From the IMG/VR virus record IMGVR_UViG_3300025121_000011, positions 124,001-188,000 of that record: a stretch of DNA of 64,000 nucleotides. One strand, given 5' to 3'. The DNA is from a virus. The translations under genes and the position numbers were made by a program. Positions within the stretch are counted from its first letter, which is position 1. Each line of letters begins with the position of its first letter. This document shows positions 47,574 to 63,770 of this stretch, piece by piece. The notes beneath the pieces are model-generated. The model was not told where the DNA came from, did not search any database, and saw nothing but the letters and a program-made list of their open reading frames with translations.

Positions 47574-48680
47574 GTGTCAAATATATTAAAAATCAGAAGC
47601 AGAGGCATAATGGGAACCCATCACAGTTGGGCTGTAGTGATGAGATCTCTATTTGCAGTGTGGATTTCTCAGGGACATGATAGTTATATCACAACCACAA
47701 ATTCATATGATGGATTTCCTGAGGAATGGCGTAAGTTTTGTGATCGCGAATATCATCGTCCGGATTTAGATATTTGTTACACTTTGCCTAGAAATTTTAA
47801 TGCGAGATTCATGAAGAAGTCGCGTAATAAAATGGCAATTTATAATTATGAAACAAGTTTACTACCAAAGGAGTGGGTGAAGGATGTTTCTCATATTGAT
47901 TTTTTGTTGCCATCTAGTGAATTTTCAAAATGGGTATTTACTAATAGTGGAATTAGTTCTGATAAATGTGTTGTGATTCCGCATGGAATAAATCAAAGAG
48001 ATTTTTTAGATAAATCTACCATTACATTAGGCAATAATAAAACTTTTAGATTTTTAAATATTTCGATTCCTCATTATAGGAAGAATATAAATGTTTTATT
48101 AGAAGCATATTACGCTGCTTTTGATGCATCGGATGATGTGTGTTTGGTTTTAAAAACAGATTTAAATCCGCCAAAGGATCGAAAAAGATTTTTATTTGAA
48201 GCGGATATAGCAGAACAAATACAGCATATCCAAGTGTATTATAATAAAATTGGTAAGAGTTTGCCTCAAGTGGAGATAGTACAGCAAAGTTTGCCAAGTA
48301 TGATTCCTCTTTATAATTCATGTAATTGTCTTGTTAGCGCATCTTCTTCTGAGGGATTTGGATTACCATTATTAGAAGGTCTTGCTGCACATATGTTGGT
48401 TGTTTCTCCGCGTTGCACAGGACAATTAGATTTTTTAAATGATCAAAATTCTATATTATATAATGTAAAAGAAGTGATAGCTCCTCCACATTATCAATAT
48501 TGGAGGCCAACAGATGGTGCTACAACCTTTATGCCGCATAAAGATGATTTAGCCGAGGCTATGTTAAGTGCTTATAATAATTATCAAGTGCTACAAGAAT
48601 CATTTGAAGCTGGTCGACAAGAGGTTCTTAAACAATTTACATGGGAAAGTGCCGCTAATAAGATTTTGGAATTATTATGA
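47574..48680 (+). CDS. Glycosyltransferase, GT4-like (GT-B)
   Basis: A 368-residue GT-B enzyme that would transfer a sugar from a nucleotide donor. The C-terminal half carries the donor-site E-x7-E motif at E260/E268 ('SSEGFGLPLLEG'), preceded by 'SCNCLVSASS'. 'ISIPHYRKNINVLLEAY' in the middle matches the typical second-domain start. No N-terminal membrane segment. Start is GTG with GAGGAG 5 nt upstream. It is the first gene of the operon after a dyad-rich gap; its stop overlaps the next start (ATGA), implying translational coupling. Acceptor and donor sugars cannot be predicted. Confidence 0.82.
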   Translation: MSNILKIRSRGIMGTHHSWAVVMRSLFAVWISQGHDSYITTTNSYDGFPEEWRKFCDREYHRPDLDICYTLPRNFNARFMKKSRNKMAIYNYETSLLPKEWVKDVSHIDFLLPSSEFSKWVFTNSGISSDKCVVIPHGINQRDFLDKSTITLGNNKTFRFLNISIPHYRKNINVLLEAYYAAFDASDDVCLVLKTDLNPPKDRKRFLFEADIAEQIQHIQVYYNKIGKSLPQVEIVQQSLPSMIPLYNSCNCLVSASSSEGFGLPLLEGLAAHMLVVSPRCTGQLDFLNDQNSILYNVKEVIAPPHYQYWRPTDGATTFMPHKDDLAEAMLSAYNNYQVLQESFEAGRQEVLKQFTWESAANKILELL

Positions 48681-50212
48681 TTATATTTGATTCTTTAAAA
48701 CATAAAAATTGGAATGGTAGGGGTTTAACTAAAAGTGGCGACAATTTAGTAATAGTAAAGTCAGCAAATTTAAAACATAAAGTTAATCTCACCATGGGAA
48801 CGTATACTCTTAAGATTATAGCCAAGAAACGTAGTGGCAATGGTGTTATTAATTTTTCTATTCAAAATACAGATAAGGTTTGTTATTTAAATAAAAACAT
48901 AACTCTCTCGAATTCTACTTGGACTGAATATGTATTTCATTTTGAATGTACGCAAGATGTTTTATCAGAGTTAATTATATCTAGAAGCAGCAATGTTTAT
49001 GGGTCAATAGAAATTGGAAGACTTTTAGTTCAAAAACAGGTTATTAATAATACTTCAATAGAAAAAAAGATAATAGTTCCTATTTATACTCATGAAGTAA
49101 AAGAAGGAATATATTCGAGTTATCTAATGAAAAATTCAAAGCAAAAGATTGGAATCATAATTCCATATAGCATATATGGTGGGGGAGAGATATATTTACA
49201 AGAGATATTGAATCATGTTGATGAGCATCAAGTCAATATAACTATGATATATTCCAAACCTAATCCAATTAAGTTTAAGCTTCCTGATGCGATTCAACAT
49301 CGTGATGCAAAGGTTCCAGAACATCTTGTTGGAGTTTTAAAATCTGAAAGATTTGATTATATAGTTTTTTATAATAGTTTATCTATTTATAATATTTTAT
49401 CTCAGCTTAAAGAGAGCGGAGAAATAAATTCTAAGATTATTGAAATCTATCATAGTGATTTTTTATGGCCAGATGCCGTGGCCAAAATAAGAACTCGAAA
49501 AGGAGTGGATGAATTCATTTCTGTTTCGTCAAGTCTCGGAAAAGATATAATCGGGATTAAAGATGCAAATAAACACGTCATACCTGTAAGTATAGATATT
49601 GAACGATTTATTCCACGTAATAAAATACAGATAAGGCAACAGCTCGGGATAACCACATCTGGTAGAATCTTTGGAACGGTGGCTAGATTGTCTCCAGAAA
49701 AGAATTTAACTTATATTTTAGAATTGGCTAAAATTCTTCGTGATGATTTATTCTTAATAATAGGGGATGGCCCGCAAAAATCTTTCCTTGAACTTAATAA
49801 GCCGAACAACGTAATTTTAATGGGATTTCAAAACAAGATAGAATATTATTATAACGCTTTAGATGCTTTTATATTGCCCTCTATTATTGAGGGTACTCCA
49901 ATTTCTATTTTAGAAGCTATGTCCTCTGGAATACCAGTATATGCATCCAAGGTTGGAGCAATACCAGATATATTGCAGCATTCATATAGTGGATGGTTTT
50001 TATCTATGAATCTTAAAAAAGATTGCCAGCTCATTGAGCAATCTTGGATCGATGCAGATATCGTTGAGCACGCCAGAGAATATATCCGGGAAAATCATTT
50101 GATTAAGGATAACGTAGATATGTTTTACAATTTGCTATTAAATAGAAATAACTTTTACAGTATGTCTTCTGATTCAATAGGTAGACTGAAATTCTCAGGA
50201 GAGTTCATCTAA
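48677..50212 (+). CDS. Glycosyltransferase with N-terminal beta-sandwich domain
   Basis: A 511-residue two-part protein. Residues 1 to about 125 look like a CBM-type beta-sandwich ('MGTYTLKIIAKKRSG', 'STWTEYVFHFEC'), possibly binding a glycan or guiding substrate. From about 153 a GT4-like GT-B enzyme follows: 'KIGIIIPYSIYGGGEIYLQE', 'FISVSSSLGKDI', 'GTVARLSPEKN', 'LIIGDGPQ', and the E-x7-E motif E405/E413 ('EGTPISILEAMSSGIPV'). The fold is complete, so the extra domain is an N-terminal fusion. ATGA overlap with the previous gene; TAATG overlap with the next. Confidence 0.82.
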   Translation: MIIFDSLKHKNWNGRGLTKSGDNLVIVKSANLKHKVNLTMGTYTLKIIAKKRSGNGVINFSIQNTDKVCYLNKNITLSNSTWTEYVFHFECTQDVLSELIISRSSNVYGSIEIGRLLVQKQVINNTSIEKKIIVPIYTHEVKEGIYSSYLMKNSKQKIGIIIPYSIYGGGEIYLQEILNHVDEHQVNITMIYSKPNPIKFKLPDAIQHRDAKVPEHLVGVLKSERFDYIVFYNSLSIYNILSQLKESGEINSKIIEIYHSDFLWPDAVAKIRTRKGVDEFISVSSSLGKDIIGIKDANKHVIPVSIDIERFIPRNKIQIRQQLGITTSGRIFGTVARLSPEKNLTYILELAKILRDDLFLIIGDGPQKSFLELNKPNNVILMGFQNKIEYYYNALDAFILPSIIEGTPISILEAMSSGIPVYASKVGAIPDILQHSYSGWFLSMNLKKDCQLIEQSWIDADIVEHAREYIRENHLIKDNVDMFYNLLLNRNNFYSMSSDSIGRLKFSGEFI

Positions 50213-51327
50213 TGAATTCTGTTAGAATGTTTGGACCGTTGGGTTCTGCATCTGGATATGCCAATGCAGTAAGAAATTTTGCATTGGCATTTTCTAAGTC
50301 TGAAATACCGACCAAATTTCACTTTGGGCAAAAAGCCGAAGCAGAATATTCTTTATTTATGGAGAGTCTTAAGCGTTACTCAGGAGATACAAATATAGAT
50401 TTTTATTTACATGGTCCACCTTGGAGTACACATCGTAGTAGGGCATATAAAATTGGTTATTTTTATTGGGAGGCGGATCGTCTGCCGTTGAGTTGGGAAA
50501 GAATGATAAGTCAAGTAAATGAATTATGGGTACCTTGTCAATTAGTTGAACAAGCATGTAGAAAGGCTAAATTTAAAGGTCCCATTAAACTAATTCCAAC
50601 GCCTTCGGATCCGTGGGAAACAAATCAAAGATTAATTATTCCATCAGATGTGTCAAATCAATATATTGTTTCAGATGATGTATTTAAATTTTATTCTATT
50701 TTTCAATGGCATGAGCGTAAAGGATACAAGGAATTACTACAAGCTTATTATAAAACTTTTAATGAAGATGATAATGTAATTTTGATATTAAAGGTGAATC
50801 CACTTAATATTAGGGGCTATACCAGAGATAAAATTAAAGTTGATATTATGGAAATAAAAAGAAGACTTAATCAAAAATACTTTCCAAGAGTCTATTTATC
50901 TAGAGATATTTTAAATGTATCACACATTCAGGCTTTACATAATACAGCTGATTGTTATGTTTCGGCTCATCATGGAGAGGGATGGGGAGTGCCAATACAT
51001 GATGCTATGTTAGCTGAGAATCATTTGATTGTACCAAAATTTGGAGGAGTGACAGATTACTTGGATGAAAATAGTGCTAATTTAGTAGATTTTAAAATAG
51101 GCCCAGTTAGTGGAATGGAGTGGTCCAATCTTTATGGTTCTTATCAAAATTGGGCTTATCCTGGTGTCAATTCTTTGTCCCAGAAAATGCGAGAAGTTTT
51201 TGATAATCCACTACATTATTATCCGAAAACTATCAAGGCAAAAGAAATTGCAGAAACAATGACCACAAGTGCTGTTGCAAGATTGATTAATAAAGAATTA
51301 ATTATACCTAGGAAGAGTAATGCTTAA
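50212..51327 (+). CDS. Glycosyltransferase, GT-B, with E-x7-D variant motif
   Basis: A 371-residue GT4-like protein. It opens 'MFGPLGSASGYANAVRNFAL', the Gly-rich first loop of the GT-B acceptor domain. The donor-site motif is 'EGWGVPIHD' (E256 to D264): the second Glu of the usual E-x7-E is Asp. 'FQWHERKGYKELLQAYY' starts the second domain. It has the same layout as the first gene of the operon. TAATG and 8-nt overlaps with its neighbours. The Asp is a conservative change, so activity is likely retained. Confidence 0.78.
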   Translation: MNSVRMFGPLGSASGYANAVRNFALAFSKSEIPTKFHFGQKAEAEYSLFMESLKRYSGDTNIDFYLHGPPWSTHRSRAYKIGYFYWEADRLPLSWERMISQVNELWVPCQLVEQACRKAKFKGPIKLIPTPSDPWETNQRLIIPSDVSNQYIVSDDVFKFYSIFQWHERKGYKELLQAYYKTFNEDDNVILILKVNPLNIRGYTRDKIKVDIMEIKRRLNQKYFPRVYLSRDILNVSHIQALHNTADCYVSAHHGEGWGVPIHDAMLAENHLIVPKFGGVTDYLDENSANLVDFKIGPVSGMEWSNLYGSYQNWAYPGVNSLSQKMREVFDNPLHYYPKTIKAKEIAETMTTSAVARLINKELIIPRKSNA

Positions 51328-52240
51328 AATTTTAGATTATTATTGTCATCAAGGGCATCAGAGGGAATTCTTTCGCACAGGCCATGAGTTTTATCTAACT
51401 GGCCTAGATTCGCTTAAGCCAAATTGGAATACTGCCCATAGGCCGCTAGGCTCTAATGTAATTTTAATTGACGAGAGAGCCGCTCATGGGCTAAAATTTG
51501 ATATAGTGATTGTTCGCTCTCCGCTTAATCCCAAAAGATATTCTCGTTTTATAGAGAAGGGAGCTATTCCAGTTGCCGTCAGTCAAAATACAACTCCATT
51601 TGCGGTAGATTCTAAAGTTAGACATATAGTATGGAACTCTTCGGTTGCTATGAACAATAGTTCCGGATTTTATCCAAAGAATATTAAGCATCATTACATA
51701 GTACATGGATTTGATCCCAATGAATTCCGTCCGATAGATGGCATAATAAAAAATGGAAGAGTGTTATCCGTCTCTAATGTATTTAAAAAGCGAGATCATT
51801 TTTTAGATTACAAAAAATTTGATCTTGTTAATCAAGAGCTTGGAAATATCTGTGATGTACTAGGACATGGGAATAATGATATTAATTCGTCGATTGGAGA
51901 GGCGTCTAGTTTTAATGAATTAATACGTTATCATAATCTGTATAATGTTTATTTTAATACAACAATTCGGTCTGCAATGCCAAGAAGTCGAGCAGAAGCA
52001 ATTATGAGTGGCATACCAACTTGTACAACTTGTAATTATGATATTGGAAAATATTTTACTCATAATAAAGATATAGTGTATGCGAATACTAAAGATGAAA
52101 TGATTAGAGAAATTAAAAAGCTTTTGGCAAATCCAGAGTTAGCACATAAAATAGGGGTAATGGGTAGAGAAACCTCTATCAAGCACTTCCATATTGATGA
52201 CTATCTGTTAAAATGGAATAATGTCTTTACAGGATTATAA
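51320..52240 (+). CDS. Glycosyltransferase-like protein, degenerate donor motif
   Basis: A 306-residue GT-B-like protein, shorter than its neighbours. The C-terminal 'SAMPRSRAEAIMSGIPTCTT' aligns with the GT4 donor motif, but the first Glu is Ser (S218) while the second (E226) remains. 'HYIVHGFDPNEFRPID' is the usual inter-domain link, and 'NGRVLSVSNVFKKRDH' the second-domain start. It overlaps both neighbours (8 nt and 1 nt). It may use a different donor mode, be a less active paralogue, or serve as a partner subunit. Confidence 0.7.
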   Translation: MLKILDYYCHQGHQREFFRTGHEFYLTGLDSLKPNWNTAHRPLGSNVILIDERAAHGLKFDIVIVRSPLNPKRYSRFIEKGAIPVAVSQNTTPFAVDSKVRHIVWNSSVAMNNSSGFYPKNIKHHYIVHGFDPNEFRPIDGIIKNGRVLSVSNVFKKRDHFLDYKKFDLVNQELGNICDVLGHGNNDINSSIGEASSFNELIRYHNLYNVYFNTTIRSAMPRSRAEAIMSGIPTCTTCNYDIGKYFTHNKDIVYANTKDEMIREIKKLLANPELAHKIGVMGRETSIKHFHIDDYLLKWNNVFTGL

Positions 52241-53745
52241 TGAAAGTTTTATTAGTGGTGGATAGCTATAATTGGGCTCTCTATAATAGGGCCATTAGTC
52301 TACAGTATTATATTAAGGATCATGATTTTTTAATTAAAAGTTTTAAAGATGTAGATAATATAGACTTTAATAAGTTTGATATTGTATATATTCTTAATTG
52401 GCCTATACATGGCTATATCCCTAATAAAATTAATAAAAAACAGAGACGAAGATATAGACTTATAACTTCCGTTTCAAGTCATATCAATAGGCCACATGCT
52501 TCAAGATTAAATGGAATTTTTAAATATTACGATGCTATTAGTTGCTCTAATATCTCTCTGTATGAAGAATTCAAGCCTCATTATAATAATGTATTCTATA
52601 CCCCATTTGGAGTTGACACTATTACCTTTACACCAAAAACAAATCCATCTGATTATAAAAACATAGTTGGTTGGGTTGGAAATAAAAATAGAGCAGTAAA
52701 GCGATTTTCCGAAATTAAAGAGGCTGTAACATCTATTCCAAATATTGAATTTAAATATGTAGATGAATCTTATGGCTATAGCAGAGCTAAAATGGCAGAT
52801 TATTATAATTCTATCGGCTGTTTGGTTTGCTTTAGTGAGTCAGAGGGAACCCCAAATCCCATTTTAGAAGCAGCGGCATGTGGTCGTCCGATTATCTCTA
52901 CTTTGGTTGGAAATGTATCGAAACTTCTGGAATCTACAAAAGGAATATATATAGTAAACACTAAAGAGGAAATTATCGAGACAATTGGTAATATTAGAAA
53001 TTATGATATGCATGCTGTTGGAATGGAAAATAGAAATGCTATCAGTCATGATTGGTCTTGGGGCCGACAATATTTAAACTTTATTCAATTTTTAGGAGTG
53101 AAACATACGGCTATGGCAGACATAAATAAAATTATTTGGTTTTGGAATGTGAATGATGCAGAGACAGCAAAATATAATAGAGTAACCTCATCTAAAAGTG
53201 AAGCAGTATGGGGAGAGAAGTCCATTTCCTCTATTATTGAAACAGATATTATTTCTCATGTTGGAGATTTAAAGGGTAAAAAAGTTCTGGATTTTGGATG
53301 CGGAGTTGGCAGAATATTAAAATATACAGCTAAGTATTCAGATAATTGTCACGGAGTAGATATTGCTCCGAATATGTTAAAGTTTGCTAAAGAGTATATT
53401 GATAATCCAAATGTTGTTTTACGTCAATCTAATGGAAAGCAGCTTCCATACTCAGAAGGAGAATTTGATGTAATTTATTCATTTCATGTTCTACAGCATA
53501 TTCCTACCAGAGAAATGCTGGTTGATACTTTAAAAGAGATAAAGAGGGTTCTTCGCAAAAATGGAAAAGCAGTATTACATTTCACTCACAAAGTTAGTGA
53601 ATTTGATAGAGACGCTGGCCAATTTGCAGGATACAGGCCGACACCTGAAAACGCCGAGAAGTTAATTAAGGAGGCTGGATTTACATTAATTAAAACAAAT
53701 ATTAAAGCAGATAAGCATTTTTTATTGTATTTAACTAAGGCGTAA
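52240..53745 (+). CDS. Fusion of GT4-like glycosyltransferase and SAM methyltransferase
   Basis: A 501-residue bifunctional protein. The N-terminal ~290 residues are GT-B: 'VLLVVDSYNWALYNRAISLQ', 'FYTPFGVDTITFTPK', 'GWVGNKNRAVKRF', and E202/E210 ('SEGTPNPILEAAACGRPI'). The C-terminal ~200 are a class I methyltransferase with motif I at about 349-358 ('KVLDFGCGVGRILKY'), acidic strand 2 'CHGVDIAPNMLKFA', and 'FDVIYSFHVLQHI'. Probably adds a sugar and methylates it or the growing chain, a known capping logic. The GT half is a paralogue of the next gene. Starts by TAATG overlap. Confidence 0.85.
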   Translation: MKVLLVVDSYNWALYNRAISLQYYIKDHDFLIKSFKDVDNIDFNKFDIVYILNWPIHGYIPNKINKKQRRRYRLITSVSSHINRPHASRLNGIFKYYDAISCSNISLYEEFKPHYNNVFYTPFGVDTITFTPKTNPSDYKNIVGWVGNKNRAVKRFSEIKEAVTSIPNIEFKYVDESYGYSRAKMADYYNSIGCLVCFSESEGTPNPILEAAACGRPIISTLVGNVSKLLESTKGIYIVNTKEEIIETIGNIRNYDMHAVGMENRNAISHDWSWGRQYLNFIQFLGVKHTAMADINKIIWFWNVNDAETAKYNRVTSSKSEAVWGEKSISSIIETDIISHVGDLKGKKVLDFGCGVGRILKYTAKYSDNCHGVDIAPNMLKFAKEYIDNPNVVLRQSNGKQLPYSEGEFDVIYSFHVLQHIPTREMLVDTLKEIKRVLRKNGKAVLHFTHKVSEFDRDAGQFAGYRPTPENAEKLIKEAGFTLIKTNIKADKHFLLYLTKA

Positions 53746-53749
53746 TCTA

Positions 53750-54625
53750 ATGATTAAGGGAAATATTCTATGCGTAATTGATGTCTATAATTGGGCCATG
53801 CATAATAGATTTCTAGCTCTAAAAAAATATCTTGGAAATGAATATAGTTTTGATGTGATTTTAGCTTCTGATCTTCAAAGAGATCATTTTAAGCTTTATA
53901 ACATAGTTTATTGTCTTAATTGGGTATTGCATAAAAATATTGCGAATCTTTTGCCATCTCCAGATAAAAGAACATTTAAGCTTGTTACGACCGTATGTAG
54001 TCATAGAACTAGAAATAATCCAGCGGAATTAGCCGAGGTTTTCAAACATTATGATAAAATTAGCGCATCCAGTGCATTCTTATTTAAAGAGTTAAAGCCT
54101 CTATATAATTCTAAAATGATTTATACCCCATTTGGAGTTGATAATACAGTTTTTAAAAAAGATACACCTAATGATCTTTATTCAAATAAATTTGGATTTG
54201 TTGGAAAAACAAATCGTCCGTTAAAAAGATTTTCAGAAGTTAATGAGGCTGTTAATGGATCTGGAGCTATATTAAAGGTTGTTAATCATAAGAGTAATTT
54301 CGATAGACAACAGATGGTTAAGTTTTATAATTCAATAGGTACGGTAATCTGCTTTAGCGAAACAGAAGGTACTCCAAATCCAGCTTTAGAAGCTGCGGCT
54401 TGTTCTAGAGCAATAATATCCACACCGGTAGGTAATATTCCAGAATTGTTTGGCGATAAATATCCGTTATCTATGGTAACTTCCAAGGCAGAAATGGAAA
54501 AACAAATCTCACTGTTAATGGCTGATAAAAAGCTGCTTAATGACTGTGGATCTTATCTGGAGGAAAGAATTCGAAAGGACTGGAATTGGTCTAAAATGTC
54601 TGAAAATTTTATGGAGTTATTTTGA
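53750..54625 (+). CDS. Glycosyltransferase, paralogue of the preceding GT domain
   Basis: A 291-residue GT4-like protein. It is clearly homologous to the N-terminal half of the previous fusion: shared 'YNWA', 'YTPFGVD', 'LKRFSEV.EAV', and 'SETEGTPNPALEAAACSRAI' with E206/E214. It lacks the methyltransferase extension. Tandem gene duplication followed by fusion (or loss) of the methyltransferase is the simplest explanation. Four-base overlap with the next gene, which uses a TTG start. Confidence 0.8.
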   Translation: MIKGNILCVIDVYNWAMHNRFLALKKYLGNEYSFDVILASDLQRDHFKLYNIVYCLNWVLHKNIANLLPSPDKRTFKLVTTVCSHRTRNNPAELAEVFKHYDKISASSAFLFKELKPLYNSKMIYTPFGVDNTVFKKDTPNDLYSNKFGFVGKTNRPLKRFSEVNEAVNGSGAILKVVNHKSNFDRQQMVKFYNSIGTVICFSETEGTPNPALEAAACSRAIISTPVGNIPELFGDKYPLSMVTSKAEMEKQISLLMADKKLLNDCGSYLEERIRKDWNWSKMSENFMELF

Positions 54626-55731
54626 AAATCGGCATATTAAGAAGTCCCCTTGGAATAGGCGGTGCAGAGCTAAGCCTATTAGATATGGCTATCAATCTTA
54701 AAATGATAGGTCATGATGTTTGGATGCATTATGACATTGGAGATACGCCATCCATGAAAGATTTTAATAAACATGGAAGCCTACAATTTCGATATGGAGC
54801 AGATACAAATTTTATTTTCGAAAACAAACAAATTACAGATGAAATGTGGGCTATTGAACAGTTAAAGACTACAGATGTAGTAATTATGATTCACAGACAT
54901 CTTTATTCTGAAGACTTGGTAAATGCTATTAATCTGGTTTCAAAAAAACTAGTATATGCCCCTGGAAAAAATAGTCATCATGTCTTTGGAAAATATCAGG
55001 ATAATAAAGGGTTCGGACATCTTATTCAGAATATAGATAAGATTATGTTTAATTCTAATTATACATTAAACATTCACTTAAATACCGGATATTCGCTTCA
55101 TTATCAGAAACTCTTAACACACGTACATCCACCAATTTATTTAGATTATTATACTAAGCGGTATGAGAATATTGATCAAAGGGCCTCCAGACAAAAATTA
55201 TGTTTCAAAGAAGGATATTTTCATATTGGTATAGTTGGAAGGCTTATTCCATCTAAAGAACCATTGGAAGTTGTTAAATTAGCAAATCAATTTTCAAAGT
55301 ATAATATCCCGTTTAAGATTCACTTTATAGGGGATGGCCTTCTAGGTGGCCAGACACGTCAAAAAGTTAAAAATGAAAATTTGGAAGAGTATATAAAATT
55401 CTGGGGCATGCTAAATGATCCATTAGAGCATATCAGTTGTTTAGATGTTGTTCTGCATTTATGTAAGCACGAAAGTTTATCTAGAGCTATAAGAGAATCT
55501 ATGTTAATGGGCAAACCTATTGTCGCATTCAATGGGGCTGGAAATTTAGAATTGCTAAGGCATCCAGAACAAAGAAAGTTACTTTTTTCAAAAAATCAAG
55601 ATGTACCTGAAATATTAAAATATTTGGCAGAAAATGGGCTGACGCGAGATGAACTAGGAAAGCTATCTATAGAGCAAATAGTAATAATGGAGCGAAATGC
55701 AATTAAGAATCTGGAGAATCTAATCAAATGA
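54622..55731 (+). CDS. Glycosyltransferase, GT4-like, TTG start
   Basis: A 369-residue GT-B enzyme starting at TTG 54622 in a TTGA overlap, with GGAG (54613-54616) 5 nt upstream. N-terminus 'MKIGILRSPLGIGGAELSLL' has the GGAE acceptor-side loop common in GT4. Second domain from 'HIGIVGRLIPSKEPLEVVKL', 'IHFIGDGLLGGQTR', and the E-x7-E motif 'ESLSRAIRESMLMGKPIV' (E284/E292). Complete by length. Donor and acceptor unknown. Confidence 0.8.
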   Translation: MKIGILRSPLGIGGAELSLLDMAINLKMIGHDVWMHYDIGDTPSMKDFNKHGSLQFRYGADTNFIFENKQITDEMWAIEQLKTTDVVIMIHRHLYSEDLVNAINLVSKKLVYAPGKNSHHVFGKYQDNKGFGHLIQNIDKIMFNSNYTLNIHLNTGYSLHYQKLLTHVHPPIYLDYYTKRYENIDQRASRQKLCFKEGYFHIGIVGRLIPSKEPLEVVKLANQFSKYNIPFKIHFIGDGLLGGQTRQKVKNENLEEYIKFWGMLNDPLEHISCLDVVLHLCKHESLSRAIRESMLMGKPIVAFNGAGNLELLRHPEQRKLLFSKNQDVPEILKYLAENGLTRDELGKLSIEQIVIMERNAIKNLENLIK

Positions 55732-56630
55732 AAAAAGTACTGTTACTGCCAGATACTAGAGGTTGGGCATATGATGTGATTGCCAAAAATATTGCTCCTT
55801 ATTTTACAAGATATCAGCCTACAATAAAATACGTTGGAGATATTTTGAATAAAAAAGATACGGTAGATTATAACAATTATGATGTAGTTATGGGTTTTTT
55901 TTGGTATGACATGTTATCATTAGGTCCTAAAATTTATAAAAACTATAATCCAAAAAAGACATGTGTTGGAATACACGGTCATAATAGTTGGATTAAGCGA
56001 AAAATTAAACAAGAAGATGCCGTTAAGATGGTTGCTATATATCCAGGAATAGGGTGTATTTCTCAAAAATTAATAAATATTTTTAAACACGCTAATCCAA
56101 TTTTTACTCCAAGTGGATATGCTTCTAATTTTTTATTTAAAGATTTAGTTAAAAGTGAAAAAATGATTTTTATGTGGGTAGGTGATCCTAAAGTTACACA
56201 CCACGGAGATATAAAGGGTTATAATGATATCATAAGGCCGGTATTTGACTCAAGACGGGATGCGGAGCTTGTTATTGCTACAAAAGAAAGTAAAATTCCA
56301 TATGATAAAATGCATGAATTTTATTACCAAGGAAATGTATATATTTGTATGAGTCAGACAGAGGGTAGCCCTCTGCCAATTATAGAAGCTATGGCTTGTG
56401 GTCGCCCAGTAATATCAACTAATGTTGGTATTGCTCCAGAATTAATCAATAGCAAAAATGGGTATTTAATCGGAAGAAGTAAAGAAGAATTAAATAGAGC
56501 TATAAATAATGTGATTGCTAATGCTAATAATTTACCAATTATGGGTCGAGAAGCCAGATCATCTGTGGAAGAGAGAACATGGGAATATTCGGCTCTTAGT
56601 TATGAAAAATTATTTGATAGGGTCATGTGA
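55728..56630 (+). CDS. Glycosyltransferase, third member of the short GT4-like subgroup
   Basis: A 300-residue GT-B protein related to the two genes at 52240 and 53750: 'PDTRGWAYDVIAKNIA' at the start, 'IFTPSGYASNFLFK' in the middle, and 'SQTEGSPLPIIEAMACGRPV' with E212/E220. ATGA overlap with the previous gene. Eighth and last of the consecutive transferases, and it overlaps the sulfatase-superfamily gene by GTGA if the GTG start is used. Confidence 0.8.
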   Translation: MKKVLLLPDTRGWAYDVIAKNIAPYFTRYQPTIKYVGDILNKKDTVDYNNYDVVMGFFWYDMLSLGPKIYKNYNPKKTCVGIHGHNSWIKRKIKQEDAVKMVAIYPGIGCISQKLINIFKHANPIFTPSGYASNFLFKDLVKSEKMIFMWVGDPKVTHHGDIKGYNDIIRPVFDSRRDAELVIATKESKIPYDKMHEFYYQGNVYICMSQTEGSPLPIIEAMACGRPVISTNVGIAPELINSKNGYLIGRSKEELNRAINNVIANANNLPIMGREARSSVEERTWEYSALSYEKLFDRVM

Positions 56631-57955
56631 ATATGAGTAAGAAAAGAAGCATTATTTATATAGCAACGGATCGTACTTGGGCTGGAACTCTAAATCTATA
56701 TGGTGGATATAACATTTATCCAAACCTAGAGGAAATGGCTAAATATGGAACTCTATATCAGAATGCTATAGCTACAGCCGGTTCCACATTAATGTGTCAT
56801 AGTTCAGAATGGACTGGTAAATATACCTGGGATTTACACCCAGGCATTCCAATGCTGAAGCGTGGATATAACACAGTTATGCCTACGCAGGATTCTGTTT
56901 TTTATCAAATGGAAAATAGAGGATACGAAACTCATCTTGTGATGGTTAAAAAAAATCCAAAGAAGTGCTTTGACACATATTCTCAGGTTAAAAATCTTTG
57001 GACAAATGATACTAAAATTCATTTGATTAATGATTGGGATGTTAGTGGAAATACAACTAATAGATTAACGCAAATCAAGGAAGCATTATCTTGTGTTAAT
57101 CAATCTCAACAAAAAAACAAACCAGCCTTTGTTTGGGTTAAATGTCATGGTCTTAACGAATTCAATAAGAGAATGGAATATTTGAAATATAATGGACAGC
57201 AGAGGATTACACTGGATGATCTATATAATGCAGAGATTGATGAAAGTATTGGAATAATCTTAAAAGAAATTGGATTTCCGAAAAATGACGAAATTGAAAT
57301 AATTTTCGCATCAGATCATGGATCTTTTCATGGACAAGGTGGCAAGTATTTTTATGGATATTGCTTAGATCAGGAAATTATACATGTTCCATTAATCAGT
57401 TCTATTGGTGGAGGCAAATTAGTTACTAAGGCATTTAGTATGCGAAATGTCAAGAACATGCTTATTGATAGAAGTTTTATTCCAGATGAGAAATATATTT
57501 TCTCAGAAACATTATATCCTGGGCAAGTTTCCGATAAGCCTAATAATGGAATTAGCTCTATGTCAAAGATAATGGTTAGAAGAGATAAGTATAAGTACAT
57601 CTATGCTAGATATGGACAAGATGGAAATTCAGATAAACCGGAAGAGATGATGTATGATTTAGAATATGATCCACACGAGAAAATAAATTTAATTCCAGTT
57701 TTAAAAGGTGAAAAGTTTCGTGATATTACTCGTGGTGATTTATCTGGTAAAAATATGACTACCGTCTTTACTAGATTGCATACAAATATTGAAACAATAA
57801 AAGATCCGAATATATCCCCTCGGTATCTAAAAGATAGATTTCGCTCAGGCTCCTATGTTGGCTGGACAGAAGTTTATGATATTTGGAGCGAGCTTCAAGC
57901 ACAAGCTCGCGCAATCTGGTCGCAGACAGGAAGAGAAAAGCATTTTAAAGTATAG
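56627..57955 (+). CDS. Sulfatase/alkaline-phosphatase superfamily hydrolase or transferase
   Basis: A 442-residue enzyme. N-terminal 'SIIYIATDRTWAGTLNLYGG' (metal Asp D15) and 'YPNLEEMAKYGTLYQNAIAT' fit the family start. The nucleophile region is 'STLMCHSSEWTGKYTWDLHP' (C57, T63-G64), which lacks the canonical C-x-P-x-R. 'IIFASDHGSFHGQGGKYFYG' (D230, H231) and 'QEIIHVPLI' are the second metal site. It could remove sulfate, or move a phosphoryl group as phosphoglycerol or phosphoethanolamine transferases do, although no membrane helices are present. Start GTG gives GTGA overlap as elsewhere here; ATG at 56633 is the alternative. Confidence 0.75.
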   Translation: MNMSKKRSIIYIATDRTWAGTLNLYGGYNIYPNLEEMAKYGTLYQNAIATAGSTLMCHSSEWTGKYTWDLHPGIPMLKRGYNTVMPTQDSVFYQMENRGYETHLVMVKKNPKKCFDTYSQVKNLWTNDTKIHLINDWDVSGNTTNRLTQIKEALSCVNQSQQKNKPAFVWVKCHGLNEFNKRMEYLKYNGQQRITLDDLYNAEIDESIGIILKEIGFPKNDEIEIIFASDHGSFHGQGGKYFYGYCLDQEIIHVPLISSIGGGKLVTKAFSMRNVKNMLIDRSFIPDEKYIFSETLYPGQVSDKPNNGISSMSKIMVRRDKYKYIYARYGQDGNSDKPEEMMYDLEYDPHEKINLIPVLKGEKFRDITRGDLSGKNMTTVFTRLHTNIETIKDPNISPRYLKDRFRSGSYVGWTEVYDIWSELQAQARAIWSQTGREKHFKV

Positions 57956-57963
57956 GAATGTAA

Positions 57964-58740
57964 ATGAATAACAAAGTAACCTTTATATTTATATTTACTA
58001 CCGGAAGAACAGGCACAGCAATGCTTGCCCAAATTTTCGGTTTAGAAAAATATAATAAGCAAAAATTGTATTTTACTGATAGCAATCGTAATGTTGTGGC
58101 ACACGAATGCTGGGATGATATTCCAGTTGATTTAATTAAGAATACAAAGTTTGGTTCCACAGAATATATTAAAATTTGTGATAATTATCTTGTTAAAAAG
58201 CATAAGGAAATTCTTTCAAAATCTAAATCTATACAGAATATTTTTATTACCGATCATAAGTTGGGCCGTTATTTTTCTGATTATTTAGTTAGCAATATCA
58301 AGTTTGATTATAAAATTATATTGTTACGCCGAAACAAAGAAGATGTCGTTGCCTCATTTTTAGAGAAAATGGCAAAAGTAAAAAATAGATCAACCAAGAG
58401 TCAATATGTTTATTTTCAGAAAAGACTCTGGAAAAATTCCTTTTATTCTCCATTTGATATGTCTGCGCTTTATCCGGTTGATCCAATAGATTGGGCTATT
58501 CGAGATGAAGAAGAGCGTATAAACTGGTACTTTGATGAGGTTAAAAGACAATGGAATAGGTTGTCTAATATTATACCAATAGATAAGAGACTGGAAGTTA
58601 AATTTGAAAACATTATAGGTGGCAGCGAAAGAGATTTAAATGGAGAAATAATTCAAAATAGTGAATTATATAAAATAAGCAAATTTATTAATTTGCCATA
58701 TAAAAAAGCTTTTTTAGATAGAAAGGTAAACGCCAGATAA
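57964..58740 (+). CDS. PAPS-dependent sulfotransferase-like protein
   Basis: A 258-residue P-loop protein. 'FIFTTGRTGTAMLAQIF' (T12-T18) matches the 5'-phosphosulfate-binding loop of sulfotransferases, and 'YKIILLRRNKEDVVASFLEK' (about 116-135) the 3'-phosphate-binding segment. The C-terminal 'LEVKFENIIG' resembles the 'v.YEdL' motif near the end of the family. It would sulfate a glycan or small hydroxyl acceptor, using host PAPS. It directly follows a sulfatase-superfamily gene. TAGGA upstream of the ATG. Confidence 0.78.
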   Translation: MNNKVTFIFIFTTGRTGTAMLAQIFGLEKYNKQKLYFTDSNRNVVAHECWDDIPVDLIKNTKFGSTEYIKICDNYLVKKHKEILSKSKSIQNIFITDHKLGRYFSDYLVSNIKFDYKIILLRRNKEDVVASFLEKMAKVKNRSTKSQYVYFQKRLWKNSFYSPFDMSALYPVDPIDWAIRDEEERINWYFDEVKRQWNRLSNIIPIDKRLEVKFENIIGGSERDLNGEIIQNSELYKISKFINLPYKKAFLDRKVNAR

Positions 58741-58750
58741 AGGGGCCGTT

Positions 58751-59848
58751 ATGAAAATTGTTATCTTAGCTGCGGGGAAGGGTGCTCGCTTTAAAAGAGA
58801 CGTTCCAAAGTGTCTTTCAATGTTAGGACAAGAAACTGTTGTTTCTCGGCAAATTAACCAAATCATTAAGTTTATTCCTAATAGTGAAATTATAGTTGTT
58901 ACCGGATTTAAAAATGATTTGGTAAAGAATTATATTATTGGATTAGATTCAAGCATTAAGATTGTTTGCAATAATAAATTTGAAAAAGACCAGAATATTT
59001 ATTCTGTTTTAATAGGTATTAAAGATCTTAACGAAGGTGTTTTAATTTTAGAAGGTGATTGTGTTTTTTCAGATTTTGCTTTTCAGGAAATATCGAAAGC
59101 AATTGATAATAATTCATCGAATGCGTTATTTTTTTTAGGACAACAGGGTGATCAAAGTATGGCGAATGGAGTTGTAAAATTTAATAATAGGAATCAATTT
59201 AGTGATTTCTTAATAGGCTTAAAAAACACTTCTATTGCTGGTTACCACAGTATGATAGGCGTGACTTGGATTCCGGTTGATATGATATCAGAATATCGAG
59301 AGAATTTAGAATCCGAAATAGTCATATCTATGAAGGAATATTACTTTAAACCACTATTAAATCCACCATTATCTTTTAATGTTTTGTGTGCAGTAATAAA
59401 GGGTGATACTTGTACGTTTAATACTCAAGATGAATTTAAGTTAGCTAAAAAAATTTCAAGTAATAATATTGATATAGTTTTATATCCGGTAAGTAAATTA
59501 ATACATATAGAGGAATATAATTCAGAAAGAGTACAGTGGCTCTTAGATAAAATTCTTCTTGAGAAGACATGGACACGGCCTCTTTGTATTAGTTCAGAAG
59601 GTTTAGTAATGGATGGACAACACAGAATGGAGGTTGCGAAGAGGATGGGGCTTAATTTTGTGCCGGTTTTAATATTTGATTATAGTCAAGTTCCGATTTT
59701 TTCATTACGAGATAAAATATCCTTTACCTATCATGATGTAATAGAAAGAGCATTGGCTGGAAATATTTATCCATACAAAACGGTAAAGCACATATTTAAT
59801 GAAGATCTTTTAAATTGTAATTATACATTAGAGAGTTTATATGATTAA
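58751..59848 (+). CDS. Nucleotidyltransferase fused to ParB/Srx (SerK/SbnI-like) domain
   Basis: A 365-residue fusion. Residues 1 to about 225 are a sugar-phosphate/choline-phosphate type nucleotidyltransferase: 'IVILAAGKGARFKRDVPKCL' (NTP-binding loop) and 'LILEGDCVFSD'. Residues about 245-365 resemble the ParB/Srx fold of free serine kinases SerK and SbnI: 'LIHIEEYNSERVQWLL', 'LVMDGQHRMEVAKRMGLNFV' (D-G-Q-H-R at about 288-292, where the family has DGHHR), and 'GNIYPYKTVKHIF' (family 'G.L.PpKtTRH'). One polypeptide could phosphorylate an alcohol and activate it as a nucleotide conjugate. Good Shine-Dalgarno (AAGGGG); 8-nt overlap with the DUF711 gene. Confidence 0.75.
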   Translation: MKIVILAAGKGARFKRDVPKCLSMLGQETVVSRQINQIIKFIPNSEIIVVTGFKNDLVKNYIIGLDSSIKIVCNNKFEKDQNIYSVLIGIKDLNEGVLILEGDCVFSDFAFQEISKAIDNNSSNALFFLGQQGDQSMANGVVKFNNRNQFSDFLIGLKNTSIAGYHSMIGVTWIPVDMISEYRENLESEIVISMKEYYFKPLLNPPLSFNVLCAVIKGDTCTFNTQDEFKLAKKISSNNIDIVLYPVSKLIHIEEYNSERVQWLLDKILLEKTWTRPLCISSEGLVMDGQHRMEVAKRMGLNFVPVLIFDYSQVPIFSLRDKISFTYHDVIERALAGNIYPYKTVKHIFNEDLLNCNYTLESLYD

Positions 59849-61061
59849 CGTTCGAACCATAACCCTTCAAAGTAAACCTTCTGAAGCAACATTAACTACT
59901 TGTATAAACCAGTTAGAATTATTTAAAAATTTGATTGAAAAATTTGATAAAATATATTTACAAGCAAGAACCAGCAGGGTTGTGATTGAAACGGTGGACT
60001 CCGCAGAGTCATATAAGCAATCCCTCTTACTGATAGAAGCATGTAAGTTTCATAATTTTTGGGGAATTTGCGTTCCAATTAATTTATACCAAGACCCTAA
60101 TAATATTAAATACGCTTATGATTTATTAGAAGAAGAATCTGTTTTTATTAATCTTATCTCTACGGAAGATGATTCTATGAGTTTATATGGAGTCAAATCT
60201 GCTGCCAAATTTATTTTTGATGCATCAAGACAAGATCCCATGCATAATTTTAGAATAGGGGCGTCTTCCGTAAAACAAAACAAAACACCATTCTTTCCGT
60301 TTTCTACAGCGGTAAATAATGGAGAATTTACCGTTGGGCTAGAGCTTATAGATTTTTTTCTTAATGTTATAGAGACTTATGATAGACAACCATTATCAGA
60401 GATTAGAAAGAAATTATGCGAATCTCTATCATCTGAATTAGATGACTTAGAAAAGATATGTGAACAATTAAGCAAAGAGTTTGGGCTATCTTTTGGAGGA
60501 GTTGACTTATCTATAGCTCCATATCCGTATCCATTAGAGGATCAAAGTGTAGTAACCTTGATAGAAAAAATTGGGAATATGGGGCGCTCTCGCGGTGAAC
60601 CTATATTTGAATTTGGATCAAATGGAACATATTTTATTAATGCCTTTCTTACTAATATTTTGAAACAGACTGCCTTAGCTCACGGAAGTGTTGGATTTAA
60701 TGGTGTAATGTATTCTCTACTGGAAGATACTTATCTTGGGCTGAGATATGAGGAAGAGGCTTTTGATGTTAATTTATTAAAATTTTTATCAACATCTTGT
60801 GGTTGCGGTGTAGACATGATGCCATTGGATGGAGATACAGATATTAATACTATAGCTTCCATAATTATGGATAATTTTACGGTATCATCTTTGTTACAGA
60901 AACCACTAGGAATTAGACTTCTACCGATTCCCGATTCTAGAATTGGAGATCGAACAAAATTTCATCATCTTTTTTTTACCAATACAAAAATTCGGAGTAT
61001 AGGGTCTGGGGTTACTTTTCAGAATCTGCCAACACAGGATTCTATTTATAAGATTAAATAA
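59841..61061 (+). CDS. DUF711/UPF0210 (PFL-like) family protein
   Basis: A 406-residue protein that shows the family's ordered motifs: 'INVRTITLQ' at the start, 'PFFPFSTAV' (about 150-158), 'GGVDLSIAPYPYP' (about 219-231), 'FEFGSNGTYF' (about 255), 'GSVGFNGVMYSLLED' (about 283), 'SCGCGVDMMPLDGDT' (about 320-333), and 'KPLGIRLLPIPDSRIGDRTK' (about 353-372). The family shares its fold with pyruvate formate-lyase-type barrels but its biochemical role is not established. It is fully retained here and coupled to the kinase/nucleotidyltransferase fusion, so it probably acts in the same step of the glycan pathway. Confidence 0.85.
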   Translation: MINVRTITLQSKPSEATLTTCINQLELFKNLIEKFDKIYLQARTSRVVIETVDSAESYKQSLLLIEACKFHNFWGICVPINLYQDPNNIKYAYDLLEEESVFINLISTEDDSMSLYGVKSAAKFIFDASRQDPMHNFRIGASSVKQNKTPFFPFSTAVNNGEFTVGLELIDFFLNVIETYDRQPLSEIRKKLCESLSSELDDLEKICEQLSKEFGLSFGGVDLSIAPYPYPLEDQSVVTLIEKIGNMGRSRGEPIFEFGSNGTYFINAFLTNILKQTALAHGSVGFNGVMYSLLEDTYLGLRYEEEAFDVNLLKFLSTSCGCGVDMMPLDGDTDINTIASIIMDNFTVSSLLQKPLGIRLLPIPDSRIGDRTKFHHLFFTNTKIRSIGSGVTFQNLPTQDSIYKIK

Positions 61062-61074
61062 AGAAGAGGAATGC

Positions 61075-61782
61075 ATGAATCAAGACGATATTAAAGAGAT
61101 TTTCAATAAGCGTTCTAATAAGTTAAAAGATCATGATCCGTGGAGATATGGAGAGAGTCTATCATTAAAGACGGATCTTATCGAGATAGAATGGATTAGA
61201 AATAACTGTAAGTATAAGAAAGCCTTATTAGATATTGGTTGTGGAACAGGGCGGCATGTTATTGAATTATCAGGAGATTTTGATGAGATTTTGGCCGCAG
61301 ATTTTGCTCAAGGAAATATAAATGTTTTAAATACAAAAATAGCTGAGATGAATATCTGCAATATACAAACCGTAGTTTCTTCAGCTCAGGACATCACTTT
61401 GCAAGCCGAAAGAAGAAAATTTGACATCATTATCGGAATAGGGCTTGTCCAATATTTAAATAATGATGAGTTTTTTAGTTTCTTCGAAGATTGTCACAGT
61501 CTTTTAAATAATCATGGCAGACTTTTGTTAAAAATTCCAATGTCAGAGACAGAAACATTTTCTTTTGATGGATATTCTGAATTACTAGAAAGTGAATATT
61601 TCTCTTTTTATAGAAATATAAATGATATTTTCAAAGGATTCTATAAATGGTTTAGCTTATATAAACTCGAAAGGGTTTTTACATTGGAAAATTTGGGTAA
61701 AGAATTATGGATAATAGAAAATCACGATAACTCTAAGCAGATATGGTTTTTGCTGGTCAAAAAAGAAACGGAGGAATTATGA
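61075..61782 (+). CDS. Class I SAM-dependent methyltransferase
   Basis: A 235-residue enzyme with motif I 'ALLDIGCGTGRHVIEL' (D53, G55-G59), strand-2 acid 'ILAADFAQGNINVL', and 'FDIIIGIGLVQYL'. Probably methylates a sugar or substituent of the glycan. GAAGAGGA precedes ATG 61075. Its stop overlaps by ATGA the start of a truncated dehydrogenase. Its last ~42 residues ('FSLYKLERVFTLENLG', 'SKQIWFLLVKK') have a degraded copy 250 nt downstream (see 61867-62010), evidence for an ancient duplication. Confidence 0.82.
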   Translation: MNQDDIKEIFNKRSNKLKDHDPWRYGESLSLKTDLIEIEWIRNNCKYKKALLDIGCGTGRHVIELSGDFDEILAADFAQGNINVLNTKIAEMNICNIQTVVSSAQDITLQAERRKFDIIIGIGLVQYLNNDEFFSFFEDCHSLLNNHGRLLLKIPMSETETFSFDGYSELLESEYFSFYRNINDIFKGFYKWFSLYKLERVFTLENLGKELWIIENHDNSKQIWFLLVKKETEEL

Positions 61783-61877: not shown

Positions 61878-62010
61878 TTTATCAAAAGAATATTTTGACT
61901 TAATAAAAATAGGAAGAACTTTTACAAGACATAATTTAGGCACTTTAATCAATGAGATTGAAAGACGTGAAGATACAAAGCAAAATTGGTTTTTATTCGA
62001 AAAGAAATAA
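61867..62010 (+). pseudogene. C-terminal remnant of a second methyltransferase
   Basis: A 47-codon frame (ATG 61867 to TAA 62008-62010) whose last 40 residues match the C-terminus of the methyltransferase at 61075 at 18 of 40 positions without gaps: 'DLIKIGRTFTRHNLG' with 'SLYKLERVFTLENLG', and 'TKQNWFLFEKK' with 'SKQIWFLLVKK'. It lacks the SAM-binding region. Placed directly before the intact dehydrogenase, just as the intact methyltransferase precedes the truncated dehydrogenase. It overlaps the stub by 11 nt, so the deletion junction lies near 61867-61885. Confidence 0.8.
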
Positions 62011-62021
62011 CGGAGTATAAG

Positions 62022-62807
62022 ATGAAAATAGGATTAATTGGTATTGGATTTGTTGGTGGAGCTATTAGGGATTTTTTTATTAAAACAGATGAGACGCTTT
62101 TATTATATGACAAATATAATGATAATTATAATGATAAAGAATCCATATTGGAAGCGGATATGATTTTTATATGCGTTCCAACTCCACATATGGAAAATAA
62201 TGGATATGATATTTCTGCTATAGAAGATTCGTTGTCTTTTCTAGATTCTCATAAATATAACGGACTAGTAATAATTAAAAGCACTGTTCTTCCTGGAACA
62301 ATAGATTCGTTTTCGAAAAAATTTAAATTGAAAATTATACATAATCCGGAATTTCTAACCGCAAGAACGGCGTCTAAAGATTTTGAAAATCAAAAGGTAA
62401 TTATTATCGGGGCGAAAGATTCAGATATAATATGCGAATTAGTAGAGTTATATACAAAACATTTTCCGGATTCTATTATTAATATTGTTAAACCGTCTGA
62501 ATCAGAATCAATAAAGATTATGGCGAACAGCTTTTACTCTACGAAAATTCAAATTCTAAATGAATTCTATGGCTTATGTCAGGCTCTTGGTATAGACTAT
62601 GAAGTTGTTAAAAATAATATAGTAGGTCTTGGCTGGGTAAATAATATGCACACCTCTGTGCCTGGCCATGATGGAAAACTAAGTTATGGCGGAGCATGCT
62701 TTATAAAAGATACTCGTGCTCTTTTAGACCAAATGAAGAAAGCACATGTTAATCATCAGGTTTTAGAAGGAGTTGTTAATGAGAGAAATATCATGCGAGA
62801 TGATTAA
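62022..62807 (+). CDS. Short nucleotide-sugar dehydrogenase (UDP-glucose-dehydrogenase-like)
   Basis: A 261-residue NAD-dependent enzyme. N-terminal Rossmann motif 'IGLIGIGFVGG' (G6-G11), then 'MIFICVPTPH', 'IIKSTVLPGTIDSF', 'IIHNPEFLTARTASKDF', 'SESIKIMANSFYSTKIQILN', and the active-site 'GGACFIKD' with C226, K229, D230. The usual C-terminal ~130-residue UDP-binding domain is absent. Start chosen at 62022: CGGAG (62011-62015) at 6 nt and alignment with the truncated copy; an upstream in-frame TTG (61986) lies inside the remnant and is unlikely. It would oxidise a nucleotide sugar to a uronic acid. Confidence 0.82.
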   Translation: MKIGLIGIGFVGGAIRDFFIKTDETLLLYDKYNDNYNDKESILEADMIFICVPTPHMENNGYDISAIEDSLSFLDSHKYNGLVIIKSTVLPGTIDSFSKKFKLKIIHNPEFLTARTASKDFENQKVIIIGAKDSDIICELVELYTKHFPDSIINIVKPSESESIKIMANSFYSTKIQILNEFYGLCQALGIDYEVVKNNIVGLGWVNNMHTSVPGHDGKLSYGGACFIKDTRALLDQMKKAHVNHQVLEGVVNERNIMRDD

Positions 62808-62825: not shown

Positions 62826-63770
62826 ATGAGTATTAATCGAGTTAAAGAAGGGTTTTATTATACAGATGGAAATATAACCGGAAAGGCACATAAAAGTTGG
62901 TATCGTGGAAAGACATGTAATTTTAATCCAAATATTAAAAATATTTTAGAAGTAGATAGTGTAGATAAATATATTTTAGCTGGATGGTTACCAGATGCCC
63001 CATTTATTGATAAAACAACTGTAATAACAACATTTGGCAGTTGTTTTGCTTTGTATATATCTGAATACCTTGATAAAAAAGGCTATAACGCTTCTCTTAA
63101 GGATGGAAATAATCTAATTGATTTTAAAGCAGGGGTAAATAATACATTTGCGATTAGACAACTGATAGAGTGGGTGTACAATGGGAAAAGCTTTGCAGAG
63201 GAAACATGGCATAGAGATGATAAAAGTATAATTGAAAAGAGTGAATCTCTTAGAAGTAAAACCTTAGAAAGATTTTTAAAAACTGATGTTTTTATAATTA
63301 CATTAGGTCTTAGCGAAATTTGGTATAATAAAGAGACTAATGATGTCTTTTGGAGGGCAATACCAGAAGATCAATTCGACCATAATAAGCACGGATTTAG
63401 AGTCTCTACCTTTCAGGAAAATAAAGATAATATTCGTTATATTTACAACACTATTATATCATTTAATAAGAATGCTAAAGTAATTTTTACAATATCTCCT
63501 GTTCCATTGGTTGCAACATTTCGCCCAGTGTCATGTCTATCTGCAAATTCAGTCTCAAAAGCTATTCTAAGAGCGGCAATAGATGAGTTTTATCGAGAGG
63601 AAAATGGAGATAATATTGACAATATATTTTATTGGCCTTCTTATGAGATTGTAGAAAAGATATTTAATTATAAATTTAATGGTGGGGCTTATGACTTCGA
63701 CTATCGACATATTAAAAAAGAATGTGTAACAGAGATTATGAGATTATTTGGTCAGTATTATACGATTTAA
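62826..63770 (+). CDS. GSCFA-domain protein, SGNH-hydrolase-like
   Basis: A 314-residue protein matching the GSCFA family: 'VITTFGSCFALYISEYL' (about 66-82, containing the catalytic-type Ser of GSCFA), 'FIITLGLSEIWYNKETNDV' (about 156-175), 'VIFTISPVPLVATFRP' (about 220-235), and 'YWPSYEIVEKIF' near the end. These proteins are related to SGNH esterases and occur in surface-glycan operons, where de-acylation or acyl transfer on sugars is suspected. No signal peptide, so it would act in the cytoplasm of the infected cell. Follows the dehydrogenase by 18 nt. Confidence 0.78.
   Translation: MSINRVKEGFYYTDGNITGKAHKSWYRGKTCNFNPNIKNILEVDSVDKYILAGWLPDAPFIDKTTVITTFGSCFALYISEYLDKKGYNASLKDGNNLIDFKAGVNNTFAIRQLIEWVYNGKSFAEETWHRDDKSIIEKSESLRSKTLERFLKTDVFIITLGLSEIWYNKETNDVFWRAIPEDQFDHNKHGFRVSTFQENKDNIRYIYNTIISFNKNAKVIFTISPVPLVATFRPVSCLSANSVSKAILRAAIDEFYREENGDNIDNIFYWPSYEIVEKIFNYKFNGGAYDFDYRHIKKECVTEIMRLFGQYYTI

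Follow-up and report, generated by a model that had tools for sequence, protein, structure and literature searches.

Pathways that decorate glycans with small phosphorylated groups share a common logic, in which a kinase or phosphonate source is combined with a cytidylyltransferase and a glycan transferase (PMC6697681). The Lic pathway, which adds phosphocholine, uses the choline kinase LicA, the CTP:phospho-alcohol cytidylyltransferase LicC, and the transferase LicD. In the Pnt pathway for aminoethylphosphonate, a LicC-like nucleotidyltransferase, often encoded as a gene fusion, activates a small amino-phospho compound (PMC6697681). SerK is reported to phosphorylate serine in its free form, with no activity on threonine or homoserine (PMC5120207). 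Lundin et al. (PMC4390871) assign DUF711 (UPF0210) proteins to the ten-stranded barrel superfamily, together with ribonucleotide reductases (RNR) and pyruvate formate-lyase (PFL).

We analyzed a 64,000-nucleotide stretch of DNA (the window), corresponding to positions 124001-188000 of a 335,169-base virus record, and examined a gene cassette in this giant phage that brings these families together. As in the Lic pathway, the predicted order of events is kinase, CTP:phospho-alcohol cytidylyltransferase, and glycan transfer. However, the putative kinase has the ParB/SerK fold instead of being a choline kinase, the cassette adds a DUF711 protein and a methyltransferase, and no LicD was recognized near the phage version. 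With the Pnt pathway the cassette shares the LicC-like enzyme and the tendency to gene fusion, but the fusion partner is a SerK-like domain and neither Ppm mutase nor AEP transaminase was recognized. The preliminary description of this locus had invoked the Campylobacter O-methyl phosphoramidate route. The kinase and cytidylyltransferase logic it drew on is retained and, with the methyltransferase, provides an analogy only; Lic and Pnt are closer. The Campylobacter kinase and hydrolase belong to families unrelated to those of the cassette.

A cassette within a phage glycan block

The right-hand part of the window is a plus-strand block of glycan genes that runs on past the window end, and the cassette sits amid these sugar-building genes. 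Upstream are glycosyltransferase-type open reading frames (ORFs; 47574-56630), three of which were identified as GT4-type using Pfam and the rest judged by eye. These are followed on the same strand by a 442-amino acid alkaline-phosphatase/sulfatase-superfamily protein (56627-57955; PF00884, E 4e-14) and a 258-amino acid sulfotransferase-like protein (57964-58740; PF00685, E 4e-5). The sulfotransferase-like gene occurs only in the window and lies outside the conserved core.

The core, also on the plus strand, begins with a 365-amino acid fusion ORF (58751-59848), consisting of a LicC/PntC-type nucleotidyltransferase domain (residues 1-240; 58751-59470) and a predicted minimal SerK/SbnI-like kinase domain (residues 241-365; 59471-59848). 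As the preliminary description stated, this fusion to a ParB/Srx-type domain overlaps a DUF711 ORF (59841-61061) by 8 nt and a methyltransferase follows. The latter, a 235-amino acid SAM-dependent enzyme (61075-61782; PF13649, E 1.4e-13), begins 13 nt past the DUF711 ORF. Next on this strand is a nucleotide-sugar dehydrogenase-like gene (61986-62807; NCBIfam TIGR03026, E 1.4e-39); by eye, a similar gene lies 3′ of the cassette in two related phages, L040 and L041. A GSCFA-family protein (62826-63770; E 1e-40) ends the block in the window.

Domains of the fusion and DUF711 proteins

Pfam NTP_transf_3 (PF12804) covers residues 4-125 of the fusion protein (E 1.9e-10). The top PDB matches of a profile of the nucleotidyltransferase family were LicC (1jyk, E 2e-22), followed by PntC (6pd1, E 8.5e-19). 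An AlphaFold model of the fusion (mean pLDDT 89) superimposed on LicC with a TM score of 0.83-0.84 (normalized to LicC), and the structures matched by this model, among those listed, were all nucleotidyltransferases or the PntC fusion. Judged by profile and model, the domain is of the cytidylyltransferase type, as had been proposed, with LicC and PntC as its nearest solved relatives. Conserved residues include K20, E101-G-D103, N74-x5-D80-x-N82, and N224. Although K20 (the lysine of the LAAGxGxR...PK motif) and D103 are kept, the LicC metal ligand D218 is replaced in every cassette nucleotidyltransferase by asparagine, which we take to be a GlmU-like state. For this reason CTP is not proven as the nucleotide.

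NCBIfam SerK (ADP-dependent serine kinase) matches fusion residues 234-312 (E 5.3e-8), far under the equivalog cut-off; cassette domains, which are shorter than the full two-domain SerK, score about 25-42 bits against a cut-off of 380. SerK was nonetheless the best NCBIfam match for all seven further cassette copies, while the Pfam ParB model gave no match to the fusion at E 0.1. Using a profile of nine homologous domains, we obtained the PDB entry 5x0b, "Free serine kinase" (E 4.5e-12), as the best match, followed by SbnI (2e-7), with the best true ParB at 3e-4. The match to the Thermococcus kodakarensis free serine kinase covered its N-terminal ParB fold and, as a second stretch, a C-terminal KTTRH segment, so that the phage domain, at about 125 residues, looks like a SerK that lacks its inserted domain of about 90 residues. 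A role as a DNA-partitioning ParB was rejected, since true ParB proteins score well under SerK and the other ParB domains are absent.

The motif set that had been reported for the free serine kinases is present. SerK E30, which is probed by the deposited variants 5x0j and 5x0e, aligns with an invariant glutamate of the cassette domains (E254 in the window). The other window motifs are D288-G-Q-H-R292, in which DGHHR has become DGQHR as in most family members, and Y340-P-Y-K-T-V-K-H347, which contains KTxxH (K343-H347). Model pLDDT was at least 85 across every 10-residue block of the domain, and nine glycan-cassette kinase domains form one clade in a tree (support 98/96).

As a control, we examined relatives of this domain outside the cassette. 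Most of the close standalone relatives examined adjoin cysteine-synthase-like genes, and other neighbors encode opine/ornithine-cyclodeaminase-type dehydrogenases, Y4yA decarboxylases, or IucA/IucC; genes of some unannotated loci were judged by eye. This is the setting in which O-phosphoserine is provided by SbnI, among siderophore genes that use it. L026, L032, L035, and L038 are exceptions, where SerK-like relatives lie in other contexts. The gene context of its relatives thus supports serine phosphorylation as the predicted activity of the cassette domain. In one relative (L033:1589-2962), the SerK-like domain opens a 457-amino acid protein encoded beside an ornithine-cyclodeaminase-like gene; by eye, the remainder of this protein may be an SbnA-like enzyme.

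The 406-amino acid product of the next ORF is a full-length DUF711 protein, as originally reported (PF05167, E 1.1e-44; 153 bits against a cut-off of 25). Its model (pLDDT 78.5, pTM 0.81) best matched the solved structure 2HA9 (SP0239; TM 0.74, E 1.5e-16), and ribonucleotide reductases came next, weakly. The cassette and canonical proteins share invariant residues, including the first cysteine of a motif that reads CGCG(V/I/L)DM in all eight cassette members (C320-G-C322-G-V-D-M in the window) and CSVG(L/I)DM in six of six canonical ones. Cassette members also carry NFR and PFFP motifs. In a tree, the two groups split with 100/100 support and the cassette copies form one clade. Whereas an ACT-domain gene precedes the canonical DUF711 gene at L042, L050, and L051, no such partner was recognized in the cassettes. 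Two ordinary DUF711 genes (L050:1008-3879 and L051:1238-4176) lie near cysteine synthase-family or phosphoglycerate mutase-family genes together with HAD hydrolase genes, a weak hint, from gene neighborhoods, that the DUF711 family as a whole may touch serine metabolism.

Neighborhoods in bacteria, archaea, and phages

Further loci came from one scan of bacterial and archaeal genomes and several scans of viral contigs, which yielded L002, L007-L010, and later L040 and L041; L027 came from a search of sampled phyla. A single-sequence DUF711 scan of viral contigs gave no match, and L040 and L041 were found by an alignment-based scan. Of the eight intact loci, three are viral (this phage and two more contigs), and the others come from an archaeal metagenome-assembled genome (MAG), Agrobacterium (L008), two Desulfobacterota, and a Polyangiaceae MAG. 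Several are metagenomic: L007, which is assigned to the archaea, L009, and L010 are MAGs.

The order nucleotidyltransferase, SerK-like domain, DUF711 is kept in all eight intact loci, with the genes touching or overlapping. The preliminary description had proposed that the fusion is coupled to DUF711 in a glycan setting and had named lack of co-occurrence in other genomes as evidence against this; the families occur together at every intact locus. A single fused gene encodes the nucleotidyltransferase and kinase in the window, L002, and the archaeal L007; the other loci have separate genes. A methyltransferase gene lies 3′ of DUF711 in seven of the eight loci, and in L010 it is nearby on the opposite strand. 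All four bacterial cassettes contain a second LicC-like nucleotidyltransferase gene between the kinase and DUF711 genes (L008:9135-9806, L009:4413-5093, L010:9121-9792, and L027:8179-8844 on the minus strand), which is absent from the phage and archaeal versions. L008 and L009 additionally encode an Asp/Glu racemase. Neither the methyltransferase nor the racemase families yielded a clue to the substrate. In the ninth locus, L002, the cassette breaks off behind the fusion gene: at L002:1079-3778 the nucleotidyltransferase/SerK gene reads in frame into a portal-like protein, with loss of the KTxxH tail, which could reflect natural recombination or an assembly chimera.

The cassette is rare, since extensive sampling of Desulfobacterota, Myxococcota, and Thermoplasmatota yielded only one further example, L027. 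Among 298 genomes of the order to which Agrobacterium belongs, the cassette DUF711 profile (E ≤ 1e-30) detected only the cassette genome, which is consistent with horizontal arrival of the gene set in Agrobacterium. We found no description of the cassette in the open-licence papers searched. In this respect the original statement that no described phage pathway of this kind is known holds. The cassette is not confined to phages, since bacteria and an archaeal MAG carry the genes. A 2025 survey of ParB-fold proteins, built on Pfam PF02195, reports many fusions; searching the main text by keyword turned up none to a nucleotidyltransferase. As PF02195 failed to match four of the five cassette domains scanned (window, L008, L009, and L027) and matched only that of L041, the survey could easily have missed this family. 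The core idea of the preliminary description appears, from these comparisons, to be right, and it is strengthened by conservation of the genes well outside this phage.

A candidate route and its alternatives

The bacterial cassettes adjoin genes for LicD (L027, E 6e-17) or CDP-glycerol-type glycerophosphotransferases (Glyphos_transf; L010, E 1.3e-45; L009, E 2e-14; the match in L008 is weak, E 0.04). In L002, L007 (3′ end only), L040, and L041, a sulfatase-superfamily homologue lies directly upstream of the cassette, and in the window the corresponding gene lies one gene further upstream. In the window protein (56627-57955), threonine occupies the nucleophile position in an alignment with 5g2v and the CxPSR sulfatase signature is absent. 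A true sulfatase is therefore unlikely, and phosphoryl transfer would fit these residues better than sulfate hydrolysis. This protein is a candidate phosphotransferase or phosphodiesterase of the phage version; its neighborhood is the basis for guessing that it acts as the transferase in phages.

We lean toward the view that these genes make up the core of a mobile route by which surface or virion glycans receive a serine-derived phosphodiester group. From the relationships above, we infer the steps, substrates, nucleotide, and acceptor as follows. The SerK-like domain would phosphorylate free L-serine, or a closely similar compound, yielding O-phosphoserine, which the fused LicC/PntC-type domain would join to CTP to form a CDP-linked amino acid. 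CTP, suggested by the LicD and Glyphos_transf neighbors in bacteria, is a weak link of this scheme, because of the asparagine at the LicC D218 position. The DUF711 protein and methyltransferase would modify the small group either ahead of its activation or afterwards, with DUF711 altering the serine skeleton through C320 and C322 in an RNR/PFL-type barrel. Transfer of the phospho-group to a sugar would be performed by LicD or the CDP-glycerol-type enzyme in bacteria and probably by the threonine-nucleophile protein in phages. A bolder version, which we put forward only tentatively, is that DUF711, as a member of the RNR/PFL barrel superfamily, catalyzes a new kind of reaction, with phosphoserine or a CDP-activated amino acid as its substrate, within a separate glycan-decoration pathway that moves among bacteria, archaea, and large phages. 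The second nucleotidyltransferase of the bacterial loci and the racemase of two loci count against a plain serine route, which needs neither.

Other readings of the cassette differ in which part they question. The ParB-fold domain might be a nucleotide-binding regulator or scaffold for a nucleotidyltransferase whose substrate is an ordinary sugar phosphate or polyol phosphate from another source. Many ParB-fold proteins bind CTP or ATP without kinase activity, one SerK-like protein bound CTP, and the change to DGQHR would fit such a role; but a mere CTP sensor would not be expected to conserve the catalytic glutamate and the SerK-specific KTxxH tail, and sister genes are located where O-phosphoserine must be supplied, making this reading rather improbable. 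Alternatively, O-phosphoserine or a derived amino acid could serve another use, such as an amide on a uronic acid, with a separate substrate for the nucleotidyltransferase. In favor of this are the nucleotide-sugar dehydrogenase in the window, an Asn_synthase-like gene downstream, and the SerK relatives in siderophore operons that consume O-phosphoserine. We consider it unlikely, as three loci have the nucleotidyltransferase fused to the kinase, the others have the two genes side by side, and no SbnA/SbnB-like gene was seen in the cassettes.

We give equally little weight to a phosphoramidate-like scheme, in which an amino acid carrier is phosphorylated and converted to a CDP-amino acid, from which DUF711 or another enzyme frees a small CDP-linked fragment for methylation and transfer. 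The combination of kinase, cytidylyltransferase, and methyltransferase recalls Campylobacter MeOPN synthesis, and one tblastn match was to a phage gene with the annotation CTP:phosphoglutamine cytidylyltransferase. However, that match (33% identity over 110 residues) covers the common nucleotidyltransferase core, and no homologues of the Campylobacter glutamine kinase or glutamyl-CDP-amidate hydrolase were recognized among the cassette neighbors. Finally, phage glycan clusters shuffle genes freely, and the genes could be chance neighbors within a gene-rich sugar cluster; we rejected this as exceedingly improbable, since eight intact loci from several phyla, an archaea-assigned MAG, and phages have the same neighbors.

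If the serine-derived phosphodiester pathway exists, DUF711, an RNR/PFL relative with a solved structure, would gain a substrate context and a first testable role, ParB-fold kinases would extend to glycan chemistry, and glycans of bacteria and archaea, as well as those made by phages, would be predicted to bear a new amino acid phosphodiester substituent. Tests outside the phage are possible with the bacterial copies, one of which is from an Agrobacterium isolate.

Downstream of the window, the record encodes a sugar epimerase, a CTP_transf_like protein, and a GDP-mannose dehydratase. The Asn_synthase-like gene (L005:5304-6080; PF00733, E 1e-5) is part of the same phage glycan block. The GDP-mannose 4,6-dehydratase gene (L005:1723-3867; record positions ~189723-191867) contains an in-frame insert of about 400 residues with a LAGLIDADG-like domain, which is probably an intein.
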